Below are positions 45,994 to 53,931 of a DNA stretch of 64,000 nucleotides, one piece after another (position 1 is the stretch's first letter; each line of letters starts with the position of its first letter). Made by a program: the position numbers and the translations under genes. The notes below the pieces were generated by a model. That model made no database searches, was not told the DNA's origin, and saw only the letters and a program-made list of their open reading frames with translations. The DNA is from Gammaproteobacteria bacterium (lineage in GTDB: Bacteria > Pseudomonadota > Gammaproteobacteria > Pseudomonadales > Pseudomonadaceae). The stretch covers positions 1 through 64,000 of the forward strand of contig JAHJYA010000022.1 in the NCBI GenBank assembly GCA_018826895.1, given 5' to 3'.

Positions 45994-47223
45994 TTAGGCA
46001 CTGAACCCGAATGGGTCATCCACCGAATGGCTAGGCTGGGTAAACCAGCGTGGGCCGTTGGCGGTCATGTAGAAATGATCTTCCAGGCGGATGCCGAACT
46101 CGCCCGGCACGCAGATCATCGGTTCATTGCTGAAGCACATGCCCTCTGCCAGCGGGGTGTTATCGCCGTCGACCAGATAAGGCCCCTCGTGAATGTCCAG
46201 GCCGATGCCGTGGCCGGTACGGTGCGGCAAACCTGGCAAGCTGTAGCCAGGTCCAAGCCCGCTCGCCTCCAGGCTACGCCGCGCCGCAGCGTCCACCGCC
46301 GAACAGGGTGCTCCCAGGGTGGCCGCCTCGAACGCCGCCTGCTGGGCCGCTTTCTCTTTGTCCCAGAACGCGCGCTGGCGCGCGCTGGGCGTGCCGAAAA
46401 CGTAGCTGCGGGTGATGTCCGACAGGTAGCTGTGAACCTTGCAGCCGGTGTCGATCAGCACCATGTCGCCGTCCTTGAGCCGCTGCGCATGCTTGACCCC
46501 ATGGGGGAAGGCACTGGCCGTACCAAACAGCACAATGCAGAAGATCGAGCCTGGCGCACCGACACGGCGATGGGCCTGGCGGATGAACTCGGCGACTTCG
46601 GTGGTGCTGATGCCTTCATGGAGGATGCTCGCAGCCGCCTTGTGTACTTCCAGGGTCATGTCCTTGGCACGTTGCATCAGGGCGATTTCGGCGGGCGATT
46701 TACACTGGCGGCAGGCCGTGGTGATGCGCCCCGCGTCGACGAAACGGTAACCGCTGGTCAGTTGGCGGATCCCCTCGAACATGAAAAAAGGCAAGGAAGA
46801 ACAAATACCTAGCTGCGGCTGCGCACCATCATTGGGCAAAATTTCCAGGCGCTTCAGGCAGTTCAGAAGCAGCGCATAAGGGCTTTCATGTTCCTGCCAG
46901 GTATTGATCACGCCGGGCACGACCTGGAAGTCGCGTATCGTGCCCTCCTCGAACGCCGGCGCCAGATACTCCAGTGCGCCGCTGGCCGGCAGAATTGCGC
47001 CGACCATGCGCTCGCTGGCATTCCACTGCACGCCCGTGAAGTACTGCAAGTTGCTGCCTGCAGCAAGAAACAGCGCGGCGATGCCCTGCTCGCGCATCAA
47101 CACCTGAGCCCGTGCGATACGCGCCTGGTACTCCGCCTCGCTGATTGGCAGCGCGCCGGCCATCATGTCCTGCAGGCGCGCCAAGGCCTGCTCCGGCGTG
47201 CTGCCGCCCACTCCCAGTGTCAT
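45994..47223 (-). CDS. mdpA: M24-family Xaa-Pro-type dipeptidase/aminopeptidase
   Basis: A 409-residue cytoplasmic metallopeptidase of the creatinase/prolidase (pita-bread) fold, placed like P. aeruginosa MdpA (PA4498), which cleaves imported dipeptides. Metal ligands can be assigned in VLIDTGCKVHSYLSDITRSY (two Asp), LPHRTGHGIGLDIHEGPY (His), FSNEPMICVPGEFGIRLEDH (two Glu). The start MTLGVGGSTPEQALARL is preceded by GAGG; the frame runs 24 codons further into the operator region. It is divergent from psdR. Confidence 0.9.
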   Translation of the reverse strand: MTLGVGGSTPEQALARLQDMMAGALPISEAEYQARIARAQVLMREQGIAALFLAAGSNLQYFTGVQWNASERMVGAILPASGALEYLAPAFEEGTIRDFQVVPGVINTWQEHESPYALLLNCLKRLEILPNDGAQPQLGICSSLPFFMFEGIRQLTSGYRFVDAGRITTACRQCKSPAEIALMQRAKDMTLEVHKAAASILHEGISTTEVAEFIRQAHRRVGAPGSIFCIVLFGTASAFPHGVKHAQRLKDGDMVLIDTGCKVHSYLSDITRSYVFGTPSARQRAFWDKEKAAQQAAFEAATLGAPCSAVDAAARRSLEASGLGPGYSLPGLPHRTGHGIGLDIHEGPYLVDGDNTPLAEGMCFSNEPMICVPGEFGIRLEDHFYMTANGPRWFTQPSHSVDDPFGFSA

Positions 47224-47282
47224 TTGCCCATCCTCGTCTGAAGCCCACAACGCACATCGTCGCTGGCAATTCGCTGCGGCAA

Positions 47283-47311
47283 AATTTAAGTCCAACTTAA
47301 ATTTTGGTCAA
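47283..47311 (-). promoter_or_regulatory. Promoter of mdpA
   Basis: On the minus strand TTGACC (47306-47311) and TAAATT (47283-47288) are 17 bp apart, about 60 bp upstream of the mdpA start. The spacer and -10 box are covered by the palindrome at 47285-47301. The same hexamers and spacing recur at dppA2. Confidence 0.7.
47285..47301. promoter_or_regulatory. Putative PsdR operator 1 (mdpA, core)
   Basis: TTTAAGT-CCA-ACTTAAA is a perfect palindrome with a 3-base centre; the symmetry extends to 11-base arms (47281-47305). It overlaps the mdpA promoter, so a bound regulator would block RNA polymerase. PsdR is the likely ligand because its gene is adjacent and the family represses this locus in P. 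aeruginosa. Confidence 0.65.
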
Positions 47312-47317
47312 AGTTTT

Positions 47318-47334
47318 TTTCAGTTGGACTTAAA
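47318..47334. promoter_or_regulatory. Putative PsdR operator 2 (mdpA, upstream)
   Basis: TTTCAGT-TGG-ACTTAAA repeats the motif of operator 1 in inverted form (13 bases, AGTTGGACTTAAA, are the exact reverse complement of TTTAAGTCCAACT). Its centre is 33 bp from that of operator 1, about three helical turns, upstream of the mdpA -35 box. Confidence 0.6.
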
Positions 47335-47351
47335 AGGGCGCCCACACGTGG

Positions 47352-47380
47352 CTGAAGTCCCTGTTGCTCATGGCTATACT
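47352..47380 (+). promoter_or_regulatory. Possible promoter of psdR
   Basis: CTGAAG (47352-47357) and TATACT (47375-47380) are 17 bp apart and 29 bp before the psdR start. Neither putative operator overlaps it, so psdR may escape strong self-repression. Confidence 0.45.
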
Positions 47381-47408
47381 GCGACGACTCGAATAGCGAA
47401 CCACTTCC

Positions 47409-47975
47409 ATGACCGCAGATCGCATTGGCGAACGCTTGCGCCGCTACCGGCGGGCCGCCGGCAAGACCCTCAATCAAGTAGCGGCCGACGCAGGCCTGAC
47501 CGCCAGCTTCCTGTCTCAGGCAGAACGCAACCTCACCGGCGTATCGCTGTCGTCGCTGGCGAGCATCGCCAAGTCGCTCGATATACCGCTCAACATGCTG
47601 TTTGACCAACCCGCTCAGGTGCAGCCGGATTCCCACGTCAACGAGCGGGTGCGCTACACCGTAGGCGGCCAATTGCTGGCCTACGAGCGCCTGTCCAGTA
47701 CCTTTCCCGGCAACTCGATCAATGCGGTGAAGATGAATATCCCAGTGGGCTATCAGTCGGAACTGATCGCCCATGAGGGCGTGGAGTTTTCCTACGTGCT
47801 CAGCGGGCAGATCGTCTACACCATCGAGGGTCGCGAGTATCCCCTTGGCCCCGGCGACTCAGTGCATTTCGATGCCGGCAAGCTGCATCGCCTGGCCAAT
47901 ATCGCCGATGCTCCGGCCGAAGTGCTGACCATGACCACCATGGCGCTATTCGGCGACCACCCTGCCAACGAGTGA
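47409..47975 (+). CDS. psdR: Transcriptional repressor PsdR (XRE helix-turn-helix plus cupin)
   Basis: A 188-residue regulator with an N-terminal XRE-type helix-turn-helix (GKTLNQVAADAGLTASFLSQ, then SLASIAKSLDIPLNMLF) and a C-terminal cupin domain (EFSYVLSGQIVYTIEGREY, YPLGPGDSVHFDAGKLHRL) that probably senses a small ligand. In P. aeruginosa PsdR represses mdpA and the dpp transporter; psdR mutants gain fitness on proteins. Its position between mdpA and dppA2 is the same here. Confidence 0.9.
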   Translation: MTADRIGERLRRYRRAAGKTLNQVAADAGLTASFLSQAERNLTGVSLSSLASIAKSLDIPLNMLFDQPAQVQPDSHVNERVRYTVGGQLLAYERLSSTFPGNSINAVKMNIPVGYQSELIAHEGVEFSYVLSGQIVYTIEGREYPLGPGDSVHFDAGKLHRLANIADAPAEVLTMTTMALFGDHPANE

Positions 47976-48008
47976 TTTTTTGCTCCAATTCGGGGCAATT
48001 ATGCGCAA

Positions 48009-48025
48009 TGTTAGTGCTGCTTAAT
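48009..48025. promoter_or_regulatory. Putative PsdR operator 3 (dppA2, upstream)
   Basis: TGTTAGT-GCT-GCTTAAT matches the TTTAAGT-NNN-ACTTAAA palindrome in 10 of 14 arm positions. Its centre lies 32 bp upstream of the next copy and just before the dppA2 -35 box. Confidence 0.5.
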
Positions 48026-48030
48026 TTTTG

Positions 48031-48059
48031 TTGACCGCAATTTCAGCATGACTTAATTT
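48031..48059 (+). promoter_or_regulatory. Promoter of dppA2-dppBCDF
   Basis: TTGACC (48031-48036) and TAATTT (48054-48059) are 17 bp apart, about 88 bp upstream of dppA2. The geometry is the same as at mdpA. Confidence 0.65.
48041..48057. promoter_or_regulatory. Putative PsdR operator 4 (dppA2, core)
   Basis: TTTCAGC-ATG-ACTTAAT matches the palindrome in 11 of 14 arm positions and covers the spacer and most of the -10 box of the dppA2 promoter. Its centre is four bases toward the -10 from the spacer middle, exactly as operator 1 at mdpA. Confidence 0.55.
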
Positions 48060-48146
48060 CGAGCTCGACCCGGTGGGCTATCCGCCTTCACCGCATTCCG
48101 AGCTCGCGCTGAACCCAGGCGCGAACAAAAAGAAAAAGAGGTTCGC

Positions 48147-49742
48147 ATGCGCATGTCTCCCCTGTGCAAGGCCCTGCTCACCGCAGGCCTGCTCACCAGT
48201 GCTTCGTTCGCCCAGGCCAGTAACCTGGTGTATTGCTCCGAAGGCAGCCCGGGCGGTTTCGACCCTGGCCTGTACACCACCGGCACCGACTTCGATGCCT
48301 CGTCGGAAACCATGTTCAACCGCCTGGCCGAGTTCGAGCGCGGCGGTACCAAGGCGCAACCATCGCTGGCCACCTCGTGGGATATCAGCGAAGACGGCCT
48401 GACCTACACCTTCCACCTGCGCGAAGGGGTCAAGTTCCACAGCACCGACTACTTCAAGCCGACCCGTGACTTCAATGCCGACGACGTGCTGTTCACCTTC
48501 CAGCGCATGCTCGATCGCGACCACCCGTTCCGCAAGGCGTACCCCAGCGAGTTCCCGTACTTCACCGATATGGGTCTGGACCAGAACATCGCCAAGATCG
48601 AGAAGACCGATGACAAGACCGTGGTCTTCACCCTCAACGCCGTAGACGCCGCCTTCGTGCAGAACCTGGCGATGAGCTTCGCCGCCGTGCACTCGGCCGA
48701 ATATGCCGACCAGTTGCTCAAGTCCGGCAAGGCGGCAGACATCAACCAGCAACCTATCGGCACCGGCCCGTTCGTGTTCAGCCGCTACCAGAAGGACGCG
48801 GTGATCCGCTTCAAGGGCAACAAGGAATACTGGGCGCCCGAGCAGGTGAAGATCGATAACCTGATCTTCTCGATCAATACCGATGCCTCGGTGCGTACCC
48901 AGAAACTGCGCGCCGGCGAATGCCACGTCACCCTCAACCCGCGCCCGGCCGACCTCCAGGGCCTGCAAGCGGACAAAAACCTCAATGTGCCGACCGAGCC
49001 GGGCTACAACCTCGGCTACATCGCCTACAACGTCACCCGCGCACCGTTCGACAAGCTCGAAGTACGTCAGGCGCTGGACATGGCGGTGAACAAGTCAGCG
49101 ATCATCGATGCCGTGTACCAGGGCGCCGGCCAACTGGCCGTGAACGGCATGCCGCCGACCCAGTGGTCCTATGACGAGTCGATCAAGGACGCGCCCTACA
49201 ACCCAGAAAAAGCCAAGGAGCTGCTCGAGGCCGCCGGAGTGAAGGAAGGCACCGAGATCACCCTGTGGGCCATGCCTGTGCAGCGCCCCTACAACCCCAA
49301 CGCCCGGCTGATGGCCGAAATGCTGCAGAACGACTGGGCCAAGGTCGGCATCAAGGCACGCATCGTCAGCTACGAGTGGGGGGAATACATCAAGCGCGCC
49401 CATGCCGGCGAGCACGACGCCATGCTGATTGGCTGGACCGGCGACAACGGTGACCCCGACAACTGGCTCGGCACCCTGTACGGCTGCGCCTCGGTAGACG
49501 GCAACAACTTCTCCAAATGGTGCGATGCCGAATACGACAAGCTGGTGGTCGCCGCCAAGCGCGTCACCGATCAGCAAGAACGCAGCGAGCTGTACAAGCA
49601 GGCTCAGGTGGTGCTCAAGCGTGAGGTGCCGATTACCCCGATCGCCCACTCCACCGTCTACCAGCCGATGCGCGCCAGCGTGAAAGGCTTTCAGATCAGC
49701 CCCTTCGGGCGCAACAGCTTCATCGGTGTGAGCAACGACTGA
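48147..49742 (+). CDS. dppA2: Dipeptide/peptide ABC transporter substrate-binding protein (second copy)
   Basis: A 531-residue SBP_bac_5 periplasmic binding protein, signal peptide likely cleaved after SFAQA (about residue 23). It is nearly collinear with dppA1, with no gaps evident in the mature part, but has its own promoter under the putative PsdR operators and leads the dppBCDF genes. GAGG lies before the ATG; a second ATG two codons on is possible. The numbering is only for this window; in P. aeruginosa this place is held by dppA3/dppA4. Confidence 0.92.
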   Translation: MRMSPLCKALLTAGLLTSASFAQASNLVYCSEGSPGGFDPGLYTTGTDFDASSETMFNRLAEFERGGTKAQPSLATSWDISEDGLTYTFHLREGVKFHSTDYFKPTRDFNADDVLFTFQRMLDRDHPFRKAYPSEFPYFTDMGLDQNIAKIEKTDDKTVVFTLNAVDAAFVQNLAMSFAAVHSAEYADQLLKSGKAADINQQPIGTGPFVFSRYQKDAVIRFKGNKEYWAPEQVKIDNLIFSINTDASVRTQKLRAGECHVTLNPRPADLQGLQADKNLNVPTEPGYNLGYIAYNVTRAPFDKLEVRQALDMAVNKSAIIDAVYQGAGQLAVNGMPPTQWSYDESIKDAPYNPEKAKELLEAAGVKEGTEITLWAMPVQRPYNPNARLMAEMLQNDWAKVGIKARIVSYEWGEYIKRAHAGEHDAMLIGWTGDNGDPDNWLGTLYGCASVDGNNFSKWCDAEYDKLVVAAKRVTDQQERSELYKQAQVVLKREVPITPIAHSTVYQPMRASVKGFQISPFGRNSFIGVSND

Positions 49743-49774
49743 TAGCTTTCGCGCACCGCCTTTAAAACGGTGAA

Positions 49775-49793
49775 CCCGGGCAACGCCCGGGTC
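49775..49793 (+). other. Intercistronic stem-loop after dppA2
   Basis: ACCCGGGC (49775-49782) and GCCCGGGT (49786-49793) form a perfect 8-bp stem with a 3-base loop. No T-run follows. Such hairpins behind binding-protein genes often protect the upstream mRNA and raise binding protein over permease; that role is inferred. Confidence 0.6.
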
Positions 49794-49888
49794 CCGCCGT
49801 GGTCGAACAGCTAACCTGCAACGTGGGCGCAGGAATCGCCAGAATTCCAGGCTGCTCGATACCGTTTTGATTAGGAGTTACCCACCGC

Positions 49889-50899
49889 ATGCTGAGTTTC
49901 ATCGCGCGCCGCCTGGGCTTGCTGATTCCCACCTTCTTCGGCATCACCCTGCTGACCTTCGCGCTCATTCGCATGATCCCCGGTGACCCCGTGGAAGTGA
50001 TGATGGGGGAACGCCGTGTCGACCCGCAGATGCACGCCGAAGCCATGGAGCGTCTGGGTCTGAACAAGCCGCTGTACGCCCAGTACCTCGACTACATCGG
50101 TCAATTGGCCCGTGGCGATCTGGGCGAATCGCTGCGCACCCGCACCAGTGTCTGGGGCGAGTTCACCACCCTGTTCCCCGCCACCCTTGAACTGGCTCTG
50201 GCCGCTCTGCTGTTCGCCGGCAGCCTGGGGGTGATCGCCGGGGTGATCGCGGCCCTCAAACGCGGCTCGCTATTCGACCACGGCGTGATGGGTATTTCCC
50301 TGGCCGGTTATTCCATGCCGATCTTCTGGTGGGGGCTGCTGCTGATCATGTTCTTCTCGGTGTGGCTGGGCTGGACGCCGGTTTCTGGGCGTATCGACCT
50401 GCTCTACGACATCCCGCCAGTGACCGGTTTCATGCTCATCGACACCCTGCTCTCCGGTGAGGAAGGCGCGTTTGTCGACGCCCTGCGCCACCTGATTCTG
50501 CCGGCCATCGTGCTCGGCACCATCCCGCTGGCGGTGATCGCCCGCATGACCCGCTCGGCGATGCTCGAAGTGCTGCGCGAAGACTATGTACGCACCGCCC
50601 GCGCCAAGGGCCTGTCGCCGTCCCGTGTGGTGTTCGTGCATGGCCTGCGCAATGCGCTGATCCCGGTGCTCACGGTGTTCGGCCTGCAGGTCGGCGCGCT
50701 GCTGGCAGGCGCTGTGCTGACCGAAACCATCTTCTCCTGGCCCGGAATCGGCAAATGGCTGATCGAGTCGATCGGCGCCCGTGACTACCCGGTGGTGCAG
50801 AACGGCATCCTGCTGATCGCCTGCCTGGTGATCCTGGTCAACTTCGTGGTGGACATCCTGTATGGATTGGCTAATCCACGTATTCGCCATCAGAAATAA
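49889..50899 (+). CDS. dppB: Dipeptide ABC transporter permease DppB
   Basis: Inner-membrane permease, 336 residues with six predicted helices. The N-terminal MLSFIARRLGLLIPTFFGIT and FALIRMIPGDPVE, and the EAA-loop DYVRTARAKGLSPSRVVFVHGLRNAL, are typical of DppB/OppB. TAGGAG lies upstream of the ATG. The next gene is reached only across an inserted palindromic element. Confidence 0.95.
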   Translation: MLSFIARRLGLLIPTFFGITLLTFALIRMIPGDPVEVMMGERRVDPQMHAEAMERLGLNKPLYAQYLDYIGQLARGDLGESLRTRTSVWGEFTTLFPATLELALAALLFAGSLGVIAGVIAALKRGSLFDHGVMGISLAGYSMPIFWWGLLLIMFFSVWLGWTPVSGRIDLLYDIPPVTGFMLIDTLLSGEEGAFVDALRHLILPAIVLGTIPLAVIARMTRSAMLEVLREDYVRTARAKGLSPSRVVFVHGLRNALIPVLTVFGLQVGALLAGAVLTETIFSWPGIGKWLIESIGARDYPVVQNGILLIACLVILVNFVVDILYGLANPRIRHQK

Positions 50900-50930
50900 G
50901 GAAGGCGCCGTGCACGACTACACCGATTGC

Positions 50931-51006
50931 GTAGGGTGGATGACGCTTCACCCATCCACCCTCACGACACCCGACTGGTGGATGAAAAAAGCGTCATCCA
51001 CCCTAC
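50931..51006. repeat. Palindromic extragenic element inside the dpp operon
   Basis: A 76-bp near-complete palindrome between dppB and dppC. Outer arms GTAGGGTGGATGACGCTT (50931-50948) and AAGCGTCATCCACCCTAC (50989-51006) are perfect 18-base reverse complements, and inner arms CATCCACC (50953-50960) and GGTGGATG (50977-50984) pair inside them. It has the form of a small mobile-repeat or REP-like unit; similar GTAGGGTGGAT units occur in other gammaproteobacteria, from memory. The dppC ribosome site lies directly at its right end. Confidence 0.75.
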
Positions 51007-51019
51007 AGGATGCACGTCC

Positions 51020-51922
51020 ATGACCACCTCCACCCCACTCGACCAGAGCCTGCTCTATCCCTCGCCGATGAGGGAGTTCTGGCAGGCCTTCGCCCACAAC
51101 AAGGGTGCCGTCGCCGGACTGGGCTTTATGCTCGTGCTGATTATCTGCGCGCTGTTTGCCCCCTGGCTCGCGCCCCATGCGCCCAGCGAACAATACCGCG
51201 ACTTTCTGCTCACGCCGCCGGCCTGGCTCGAGGGCGGGCAGTGGCGTTTCCTGCTCGGTACGGACGAGTTGGGCCGCGACCTGCTCTCGCGGCTGATCCA
51301 TGGCGCGCGCCTGTCGCTGCTGATCGGCCTGGCCTCGGTACTGCTGTCGCTGATTCCCGGGGTTTTGCTGGGCCTGGTGGCTGGTTTCTTCCCGCGTCTG
51401 CTCGGGCCATCGATCATGCGCCTGATGGACGTGATGCTCGCCCTGCCCTCACTGCTGCTGGCGGTGGCCATCGTCGCCATCCTCGGCCCAGGCTTGATCA
51501 ACACCATCTTCGCCATCGCCATCGTCTCGCTGCCGGCTTATGTGCGCCTGACCCGCGCGGCGGTGATGAGCGAGCTGGACCGCGATTACGTCACCGGCGC
51601 CCGCCTGGCGGGTGCTCGTCTGCCTCGGCTGATGTTCGTCACCGTACTGCCCAACTGCATGGCACCGCTGATCGTGCAGGCCACCTTGAGTTTTTCTTCG
51701 GCGATTCTCGATGCCGCCGCCCTGGGTTTTCTCGGCCTCGGCGTACAACCGCCCACACCCGAGTGGGGCACCATGCTCGCCTCGGCACGTGACTACATCG
51801 AACGCGCCTGGTGGGTGGTCACTCTGCCAGGGCTGACCATCCTGCTCAGCGTGTTGGCGATCAACCTGATGGGCGACGGGCTGCGCGATGCGCTGGACCC
51901 GAAACTCAAGAACGCCGCCTGA
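51020..51922 (+). CDS. dppC: Dipeptide ABC transporter permease DppC
   Basis: Second permease subunit, 300 residues, with an N-terminal cytoplasmic part then six helices. Typical segments are LLGTDELGRDLLSRLIHGAR, the EAA-loop DYVTGARLAGARLPRLMFVTVLPN and LGFLGLGVQPPTPEWGTML. The start MTTSTPLDQSLLYPSP is chosen because the frame upstream is the repeat element; AGGA lies nine bases before the ATG. Confidence 0.94.
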   Translation: MTTSTPLDQSLLYPSPMREFWQAFAHNKGAVAGLGFMLVLIICALFAPWLAPHAPSEQYRDFLLTPPAWLEGGQWRFLLGTDELGRDLLSRLIHGARLSLLIGLASVLLSLIPGVLLGLVAGFFPRLLGPSIMRLMDVMLALPSLLLAVAIVAILGPGLINTIFAIAIVSLPAYVRLTRAAVMSELDRDYVTGARLAGARLPRLMFVTVLPNCMAPLIVQATLSFSSAILDAAALGFLGLGVQPPTPEWGTMLASARDYIERAWWVVTLPGLTILLSVLAINLMGDGLRDALDPKLKNAA

Positions 51923-51988
51923 GGAGGTCTGCATGCACAACGTCAACTCGATGCGCGCGGCGCACCCATGCCCACCGGAGCGCCACCC

Positions 51989-52963
51989 ATGAGCCTGCTG
52001 GATATTCGCAACCTCAGCGTGCGCTTTGGCAACGCTAATGCCATCCCGGTGGTCGACGGCCTAGACCTGAATGTGCAAGCCGGCGAAGTGCTGGCGATTG
52101 TCGGTGAATCCGGCTCCGGTAAATCGGTGACCATGATGGCGCTGATGGGCCTGATCGACGCCCCCGGCATCGTCAGCGCCGACAGCCTGCGCTTCGACGG
52201 CACCGACATGCTGCGGCTCAAGGGCCGTCAGCGTCGGCATATCGTCGGCAAGGACCTGGCCATGGTTTTTCAGGACCCGATGACCGCGCTCAACCCCAGC
52301 TACACCGTGGGTTTTCAGATCGAAGAAGTGCTGCGCCAGCACCTCGGTCTCAAGGGCCAGGCCGCCCGCCAGCGCGCCCTGCAACTGCTCGAACGGGTGG
52401 AAATCCCCGCCGCGGCCAGCCGCCTGGATGCCTACCCGCACCAGCTTTCCGGCGGTATGAGCCAACGGGTGGCGATTGCCATGGCCATCGCTGCCGAGCC
52501 CAAGCTGCTGATCGCCGACGAGCCGACCACGGCCCTGGACGTGACCATTCAGGCGCAGATCATGGAGCTGCTGGTCAGCCTGCAACGCGAACAGAACATG
52601 GGGCTGGTGCTGATCACCCATGACCTGGCGGTGGTCGCCGAAACCGCGCAACGGGTCTGTGTGATGTACGCCGGGCAAGCCGTGGAGATCGGCAACGTGC
52701 CGCAGCTGTTCAGCGCCCCCAGCCACCCCTACACCGAGGCGCTGCTCAAGGCGATCCCCGAACACAGCCAGGGCCAGCGCCGCCTGACCACCCTGCCCGG
52801 CATCGTTCCCGGGCGCTACGACCGTCCGGCGGGCTGCCTGCTGTCGCCACGCTGCCCCTATGCCCAGGCCCATTGCCGTGAACAACGCCCCAGCCTGGAT
52901 GCCCATGAGCGTGGCGCGGCGCGCTGCTTCTACCCGCTCAACCTGACTGCGGAGGTGGCCTGA
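51989..52963 (+). CDS. dppD: Dipeptide ABC transporter ATPase DppD
   Basis: ATPase subunit of 324 residues with Walker [11 protein letters not shown], signature [15 protein letters not shown], Walker [15 protein letters not shown] and the C-terminal oligopeptide-transporter extension with cysteines ([12 protein letters not shown]) that in relatives binds an Fe-S cluster. The start [14 protein letters not shown] has GGAG upstream. The stop overlaps the dppF start. Confidence 0.95.
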
Positions 52964-53931
52964 TGAATACTGTCCTGACTGCCCGAGACCTTACCCGCCA
53001 CTACAGCTTGTCCCTCGGGCTGTTCAAGCCCGCCGCCACACTCCAGGCCCTCAATGGCGTGTCTTTCGACCTGGACGCCGGCCGTACCCTGGCCGTGGTC
53101 GGCGAATCCGGCTGCGGTAAATCCACCCTGGCCCGCGCCCTGACGCTGATCGAGGAACCCAGCTCGGGCTCGCTGCAGATCGCCGGGCAAGAGGTGACTG
53201 GCGCCAACAAGTCGCAGCGCAAGCAACTGCGCCGCGACGTGCAGATGGTCTTTCAGAACCCCTATGCCTCGCTCAACCCACGGCAGAAGATCGGCGACCA
53301 GTTGGCCGAACCGCTGCTGATCAATACCCGCCTGAGTGCGGCCGAACGGCGCGAGCGGGTGCAGGCGATGATGCAGCAGGTGGGCCTGCGCCCCGAGCAT
53401 TACCAGCGCTACCCGCACATGTTCTCCGGCGGCCAGCGCCAGCGCGTGGCCCTGGCCCGGGCGATGATGCTGCAACCCAAGGTGCTGGTGGCAGACGAGC
53501 CGACCTCAGCGCTGGACGTGTCGATCCAGGCCCAGGTACTCAACCTGTTTATGGACCTGCAGGAACAGTTCAACACCGGCTACGTGTTTATCTCGCACAA
53601 CCTCTCGGTGGTGCGCCATGTCGCCGACGATGTGCTGGTGATGTACCTCGGCCGCCCGGCGGAAATGGGCCCCAGCGAGCTGATCTACAGCCGCCCGTTA
53701 CACCCATACACCCAGGCGCTGCTGTCGGCGACGCCCACCATTCACCCCGACCCGAACAAGCCGAAGATAAAACTCAGCGGTGAACTGCCCAACCCCCTGT
53801 CGCCGCCCAGCGGCTGCGCCTTCCATCAACGCTGCCCCCATGCCAGCGAACGCTGCACGCTGGAACGCCCGGCGCTACGCCCGCTGGACGGGCGCCAAGT
53901 GGCCTGCCATCACGCCGAGGAACTGAGTTAG
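52963..53931 (+). CDS. dppF: Dipeptide ABC transporter ATPase DppF
   Basis: Second ATPase subunit, 322 residues, with Walker A GESGCGKSTLAR, signature MFSGGQRQRVALARA, Walker B VLVADEPTSALDVS and the C-terminal GCAFHQRCPHASERC extension. It overlaps dppD by one base (TGATG) and its last 4 bases overlap the end of the convergent reductase gene, so no terminator separates them. Confidence 0.95.
   Translation: MNTVLTARDLTRHYSLSLGLFKPAATLQALNGVSFDLDAGRTLAVVGESGCGKSTLARALTLIEEPSSGSLQIAGQEVTGANKSQRKQLRRDVQMVFQNPYASLNPRQKIGDQLAEPLLINTRLSAAERRERVQAMMQQVGLRPEHYQRYPHMFSGGQRQRVALARAMMLQPKVLVADEPTSALDVSIQAQVLNLFMDLQEQFNTGYVFISHNLSVVRHVADDVLVMYLGRPAEMGPSELIYSRPLHPYTQALLSATPTIHPDPNKPKIKLSGELPNPLSPPSGCAFHQRCPHASERCTLERPALRPLDGRQVACHHAEELS

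Follow-up and report, generated by a model that had tools for sequence, protein, structure and literature searches.

The psdR locus and its four palindromes

Within the window (the whole stretch of DNA that was analysed, 64,000 nucleotides in length), psdR lies between a divergently oriented metallopeptidase gene, mdpA, and a solute-binding protein gene, dppA2, and each of these two neighbours has a predicted promoter overlain by one palindrome and accompanied by a second one upstream. The features are as follows, with strand given where it applies.

45994..47223, minus strand: mdpA, M24-type metallopeptidase, ATG start
47283..47311, minus strand: predicted mdpA promoter, TTGACC-17-TAAATT (promoter scan and sequence reading)
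47285-47301: putative mdpA core operator, TTTAAGTCCAACTTAAA; 14 of 14 arm bases; overlaps the mdpA promoter at its spacer and -10
47318-47334: putative mdpA distal operator, TTTCAGTTGGACTTAAA; 13 of 14 arm bases; 33 bp upstream of the core copy on the mdpA strand
47409..47975, plus strand: psdR, XRE helix-turn-helix (HTH) and cupin regulator
48009-48025: putative dppA2 distal operator, TGTTAGTGCTGCTTAAT; 10 of 14 arm bases; 32 bp upstream of the core copy
48025..48041: dppA2 middle slot; encloses the -35 box; -0.6 bits here, whereas 20 of 72 relatives have a full operator in this position
48032..48060, plus strand: predicted dppA2 promoter, TTGACC-17-TAATTT (read from the sequence; 57 of 72 relatives have TTGACC)
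48041-48057: putative dppA2 core operator, TTTCAGCATGACTTAAT; 11 of 14 arm bases; overlaps the dppA2 promoter at its spacer and -10
48147..49742, plus strand: dppA2, peptide-type solute-binding protein
49889..53931, plus strand: dppB, dppC, dppD and dppF-like genes, possibly cotranscribed with dppA2

The psdR product matches the profiles HTH_31, HTH_3 and Cupin_2, as befits an XRE HTH and cupin regulator, and shares 82% identity with PsdR of P. aeruginosa PA7 and 99% with that of P. cuatrocienegasensis; the adjoining genes are, by sequence assignment, those of a dipeptidase and of peptide uptake. We take the recognition helix to lie in the stretch FLSQAERNL, which does not vary across 12 aligned PsdR sequences with identities down to 56%, and a search of solved-structure sequences with PsdR (E <= 1e-5) returned SinR HTH domains only. 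For mdpA, a TTG start at 47295 was considered and disfavoured, as the edge of the core operator would then fall inside the reading frame.

The first-pass annotation had described four copies of TTTAAGT-NNN-ACTTAAA, centred on 47293, 47326, 48017 and 48049. Reading the sequence confirms a palindrome at each of these centres; the exact motif is present in one copy only, the others retaining 13, 11 and 10 of the 14 arm bases, and the copy at 48017 escapes a search that allows 3 mismatches. Sites in the window nevertheless exceed chance, with 3 matches at up to 3 mismatches versus 0.22 expected and none of 100 shuffles reaching 3. A palindrome of the form TTAAG-N5-CTTAA over the core promoter is also found, exact at one of the four copies and as a near-match at three. 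A scan of the window's assembly (4.40 Mb, 88.4% complete) that tolerated 3 mismatches gave 25 places, and a reversed control pattern gave 61, so that a place at 3 mismatches has little meaning on its own; at 0 or 1 mismatch the scan finds the mdpA pair and nothing else, and no place is at exactly 2. In order of position the four sites score 26.8, 24.2, 14.8 and 21.3 bits by a weight matrix that was trained on the same locus in relatives and is to that extent circular; the rest of the window holds one further place of at least 3 bits (3.2).

In 47200-50000 the scanner reports a single promoter-like match, the minus-strand mdpA promoter, and shuffles average 0.7 such matches, which places the mdpA promoter motif itself within chance. 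The dppA2 promoter scores under the scanner cut-off, yet its letters read as had been claimed. At both promoters the core copy begins 4 nt past TTGACC, so that its centre lies 4 nt from the middle of the spacer, the latter as described at the outset. The further description of the two pairs as geometrically identical holds for the placement of the core copy; their spacings are near-identical only, the mdpA pair being 33 bp apart and the dppA2 pair 32 bp.

Sites accompany the target genes across relatives

With psdR found in 9 of 199 same-genus genomes at E <= 1e-40, the gene is uncommon, and our comparison covers the best 80 of 92 psdR loci found and is not a description of the genus. Loci L001-L072 come from Pseudomonas, Stutzerimonas or nearby MAGs, and L073-L080 from other groups. 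The weight matrix was built from 38 sites in 24 representatives (below 90% PsdR identity) and used with a cut-off of 4 bits, at which shuffled intergenic DNA gives a background of 0.18 per kb and the remainder of those loci one of 0.05 per kb.

The anticipated recurrence of the palindromes upstream of mdpA and dppA in related genomes was borne out. Among the best 80 of 92 loci, all 68 that have a divergent mdpA carry at least one site upstream of psdR, and none of the 11 that lack it does (L072 is excluded, as a contig end cuts the locus); sites lie downstream of psdR in 72 of 72 loci in which dppA (71) or dppB without dppA (L040) follows and in 0 of 8 otherwise. Neither the 68 nor the 72 loci are independent of one another, being related, with 24 representatives below 90% identity, and 10 of the 11 mdpA-less loci form a single clade. 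Ten P. protegens/chlororaphis-type loci have lost mdpA and retain the dppA-side pair (10/10), weakly so in L029 (distal copy 7.3 bits).

Individual loci show further rearrangements. Three P. protegens-type loci that were inspected (L021, L026 and L031) contain a short ORF with a start that is dppA2-like by eye, followed by a full-length solute-binding protein gene, and this short ORF seems to be a dppA2 remnant. Locus L040 lacks dppA2, has dppB directly downstream of psdR and retains an operator triplet. At L058, mdpA looks broken (two short matches) and the operator persists at 19.4 bits.

Putative operators are regularly spaced and sometimes tripled

Of the 54 multi-site loci on the mdpA side, 52 have their neighbouring sites at distances of 16-18 or 32-35 bp, and so do all 71 on the dppA side. 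The main spacings on the mdpA side (n = 68) are 33 bp (28 loci), 34 bp (11), 34+16 bp (6) and 17 bp (5), with 35, 16+18, 27 and 81 bp in one locus each; those on the dppA side (n = 72) are 32 bp (43), 16+16 bp (19) and 17+16 bp (5), with 32+32, 16+16+17, 32+16 and 34 bp in one locus each. Not every promoter keeps more than one site, since single sites occur at 14/68 mdpA and 1/72 dppA promoters. Some partners are weak: those at 27 and 81 bp score 4.8 and 4.5 bits, and those on the mdpA side of L042 and L063 score 10.2 and 7.4 bits. In PA7 there is a pair at each promoter, 34 bp apart at mdpA, where the two palindromes span 51 bp, and 32 bp apart at dppA.

At dppA, a strong middle copy (at least 14 bits) is present in 20/72 loci and a weak one (4.5-6.4 bits) in five further loci. 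This copy surrounds the -35 box, for example as TTTAAGTTGACCTTAA, and in L078, L079 and L080 a site enclosing the -35 box and the core copy are 17 bp apart. On the PsdR tree the dppA triplet label needs 3 changes, one of them on the long branch L063, though the triplet may have arisen only once. From these comparisons, the twin operators of the window appear to be a two-copy version of an array whose step is ~16 bp. The published accounts of PsdR (PMC7901475, PMC10965056), in the portions available, contain no description that we found of arrays of PsdR sites; the paired and tripled sites, the ~16 bp step and a middle slot that encloses the -35 box are new architectural detail, although we claim neither their absence from print nor that they are unpublished.

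At 10.5 bp per helical turn, spacings of 32, 33 and 34 bp correspond to 3.05, 3.14 and 3.24 turns. Two dimers 32 bp apart lie on the same face of the helix and two 34 bp apart not quite, whereas neighbours 16 bp apart lie on opposite faces, so that plain same-face contact cannot explain every form. The initial suggestion of cooperative dimers at a three-turn spacing is supported in part only: it agrees with the 32 bp of most dppA promoters and fits less well with the 33 or 34 bp of the mdpA side, which is not a whole number of turns, with the strong third sites at dppA, with the 17-bp forms and with the single-site mdpA promoters, the last of which argue against a strict need for cooperative binding. 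Geometry by itself cannot demonstrate cooperativity, and mutual support of PsdR dimers is put forward here as a prediction.

Conservation within the sites

Fixed arms around a variable centre are the pattern that would be expected of a dimer-binding site. In 14 of 17 dppA-side representatives (L049, L053 and L063 were dropped, as their spacing is not 32 bp), the arms of the distal copy carry 1.41 and 1.75 bits, its centre 0.28 and its upstream flank 0.35 bits. The corresponding values for the mdpA distal copy, from the 10 of 21 representatives with a doublet that is spaced by 33 or 34 bp and reaches at least 8 bits, are 1.76 and 1.60 bits for the arms, 0.42 for the centre and 0.28 for the flank, and the mdpA core copy follows the same pattern (1.77, 0.49 and 1.73 bits for arm, centre and arm). 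At the dppA core copy the centre is conserved too (1.68 bits), for which we offer no explanation.

In the middle slot at dppA, 11 doublet representatives have a largely fixed TTT and G to the left of the -35 box; 7 of these 11 beat a permutation at p < 0.05 and 6 of 11 a random-letter null, counts that are not independent. The mdpA middle slot shows nothing consistent. As a true operator, the window's own dppA2 middle slot was rejected on its score of -0.6 bits; it is at most a suggestive remnant.

The regulon appears to be local

The strict palindrome TTAAGYNNNRCTTAA occurs 35 times in 26 genomes, 21 times at psdR loci (by coordinates) and 14 times elsewhere, and a reversed control occurs 13 times, so that the regulon looks local, in line with the available text of PMC7901475. 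A wider regulon in the window's assembly was rejected, no other place being found at 0-2 mismatches, and near dppA1 (44333) the weight matrix gives no site above 3 bits.

Two sets of palindromes outside psdR loci were noted separately. In PA7, a lone PsdR-type palindrome (L091:720-736, 24.5 bits) lies ~140 bp before the ORF of a serralysin-type protease, which has an aprA-like reading; it is the only TTAAGTnnnACTTAA outside psdR loci among the 26 genomes, and, PA7 itself aside, it was matched in 0/36 other relatives searched. The PA7 mdpA promoter was matched in 4 of the other 36. The palindrome TTAAGCTTCGCTTAA occurs outside psdR loci in four genomes (G199, G204, G208 and G212), twice in one of them, and may form a hairpin instead of serving as an operator.

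A model of repression by paired PsdR dimers, and its alternatives

For P. aeruginosa, the portions of the literature available to us already establish PsdR as a regulator, its regulon and its motif: PsdR is reported to control mdpA and dppA3 directly through a palindrome, with two sites flanking psdR, to bind and repress both promoters, with derepression in a psdR mutant, and to recognise TTAAGxxxxxCTTAA, a motif derived from DAP-seq, EMSA and RNA-seq (PMC7901475, PMC10965056), and dipeptides are reported to induce mdpA (PMC7901475). The attribution of the window's palindromes to PsdR, originally made from adjacency and from P. aeruginosa, is well supported by this motif, by the invariant FLSQAERNL and by the way in which sites and targets come and go together; in the present organism binding is predicted from sequence.

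In the window and its relatives, then, the core copy overlaps the promoter spacer and -10, the sites keep a characteristic spacing, and they co-occur with the target genes. We think it probable that the four palindromes form two operator pairs, bound by PsdR dimers that shut the mdpA and dppA2 promoters, and that such a pair is one way of filling an array whose step is ~16-17 bp. PsdR would bind each palindrome as a dimer; on the core copy it would cover the spacer and -10 and so close the mdpA and dppA2 promoters, and a second dimer on the distal copy would sit immediately upstream of the -35 box. The cupin domain is the probable sensor of dipeptides, which would free PsdR from the DNA, and the release of PsdR would lead to the uptake protein and the dipeptidase being produced together. 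Relatives would fill the distal and core positions of the array, the middle and core positions or all three, and because the step is about the size of one dimer site, adjacent dimers are predicted to support each other.

The stretch between two operators, 15-16 bp, is itself about one dimer site. A more tentative extension, which we regard as possible though doubtful, is that a third PsdR dimer fills the -35 slot and is held mainly by its neighbours, with triplets writing the slot as an operator and with the bands seen in EMSA reflecting successive dimers. The available text of PMC7901475 interprets a two-band shift as PsdR monomer and then dimer, reports that mutation of a half-palindrome yields a faster-moving complex, and gives probes with 83-96 bp of target. 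Given that the mdpA pair of PA7 spans 51 bp, such a probe could contain both palindromes, and we suggest that in the P. aeruginosa mdpA assay one and then two dimers could give the same bands. The lone lasR site is reported, in the accessible part of the P. aeruginosa work, at ~1/3 of the binding signal of mdpA and dppA3; the lasR-type site in PA7 (16.4 bits) stands alone, with no partner at 16, 17, 32, 33 or 34 bp and the next site (7.9 bits) 98 bp off, which fits that signal without proving a role for the array.

Among explanations that compete with paired operators, the one that survives best, though we consider it unlikely, is that only the core copy is an operator, the distal copy being weak or auxiliary and conserved through slow change of a shared promoter. 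The core copy by itself covers the spacer and -10, mdpA promoters with a single site exist (14/68), and none of the window's four copies scores lower than the dppA2 distal one (14.8 bits); slow change, however, sits poorly with distal arms that are conserved at both promoters when neither the distal centre nor the flank upstream of it is, and the distal copy is kept with its spacing in 71/72 dppA-side loci. Far less probable is that the upstream pair serves mainly psdR autoregulation rather than mdpA: it does lie between mdpA and psdR, ~75-125 bp ahead of the psdR start, and a figure legend in PMC7901475, a source available in part, suspects autoregulation in this regulator family, but where the gap to psdR widens (L017, L019, L042 and L062) the sites follow mdpA, and they are missing from the 11 loci with psdR but without mdpA. 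Autoregulation of psdR could still arise as a side effect of the upstream pair. That some regulator other than PsdR binds the palindromes is equally improbable, for although binding by PsdR in this organism is a prediction, the motif is the same as the published one and the sites accompany psdR loci across families.

Relation to known systems and significance

The proposed array of PsdR dimers resembles lambda CI-type operator sets, in which dimers with an XRE fold occupy two or three adjacent operators over a promoter; spacing and outcome differ between the two, and cooperativity is proven for lambda and a prediction for PsdR. Closest is PsdR of P. aeruginosa (PA4499) acting on mdpA and dppA3, with the same regulator, neighbouring targets, motif and position over the core promoter, the difference being that the P. 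aeruginosa papers, in the portions available, give one site per promoter (PMC7901475, PMC10965056) and the window has two; in addition, PA7 has a porin-like gene after dppA3 where the window has dppBCDF-like genes after dppA2. The available text on DbuR of Pseudomonas putida (PMC12724383) likewise describes an XRE-cupin repressor over the -10 of an adjoining operon, in that case with a single 20-bp palindrome within a 44-bp DNase I footprint and no pair. For Xre-RES of Pseudomonas putida, XRE dimers have also been proposed at two operator positions, for avidity, but as part of a 4:2 toxin-antitoxin complex with modelled sites ~20 bp apart (PMC12204516, available in part).

In the dppA2-dppB gap (window 49743-49888) there is a G+C-rich hairpin that lacks a T run, but no terminator-like site was found, and PsdR may thus govern the whole transporter in this window, from dppA2 through the dppBCDF-like genes. 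How PsdR shuts off its targets also bears on models of casein evolution in P. aeruginosa, since psdR mutants are reported, in the part of PMC10965056 available, to appear and fix early as that species evolves on casein. If the operator array is true, it predicts steep, near all-or-none repression, and it would offer both an alternative reading of the EMSA bands and one reason for the weak signal at the lone lasR site.
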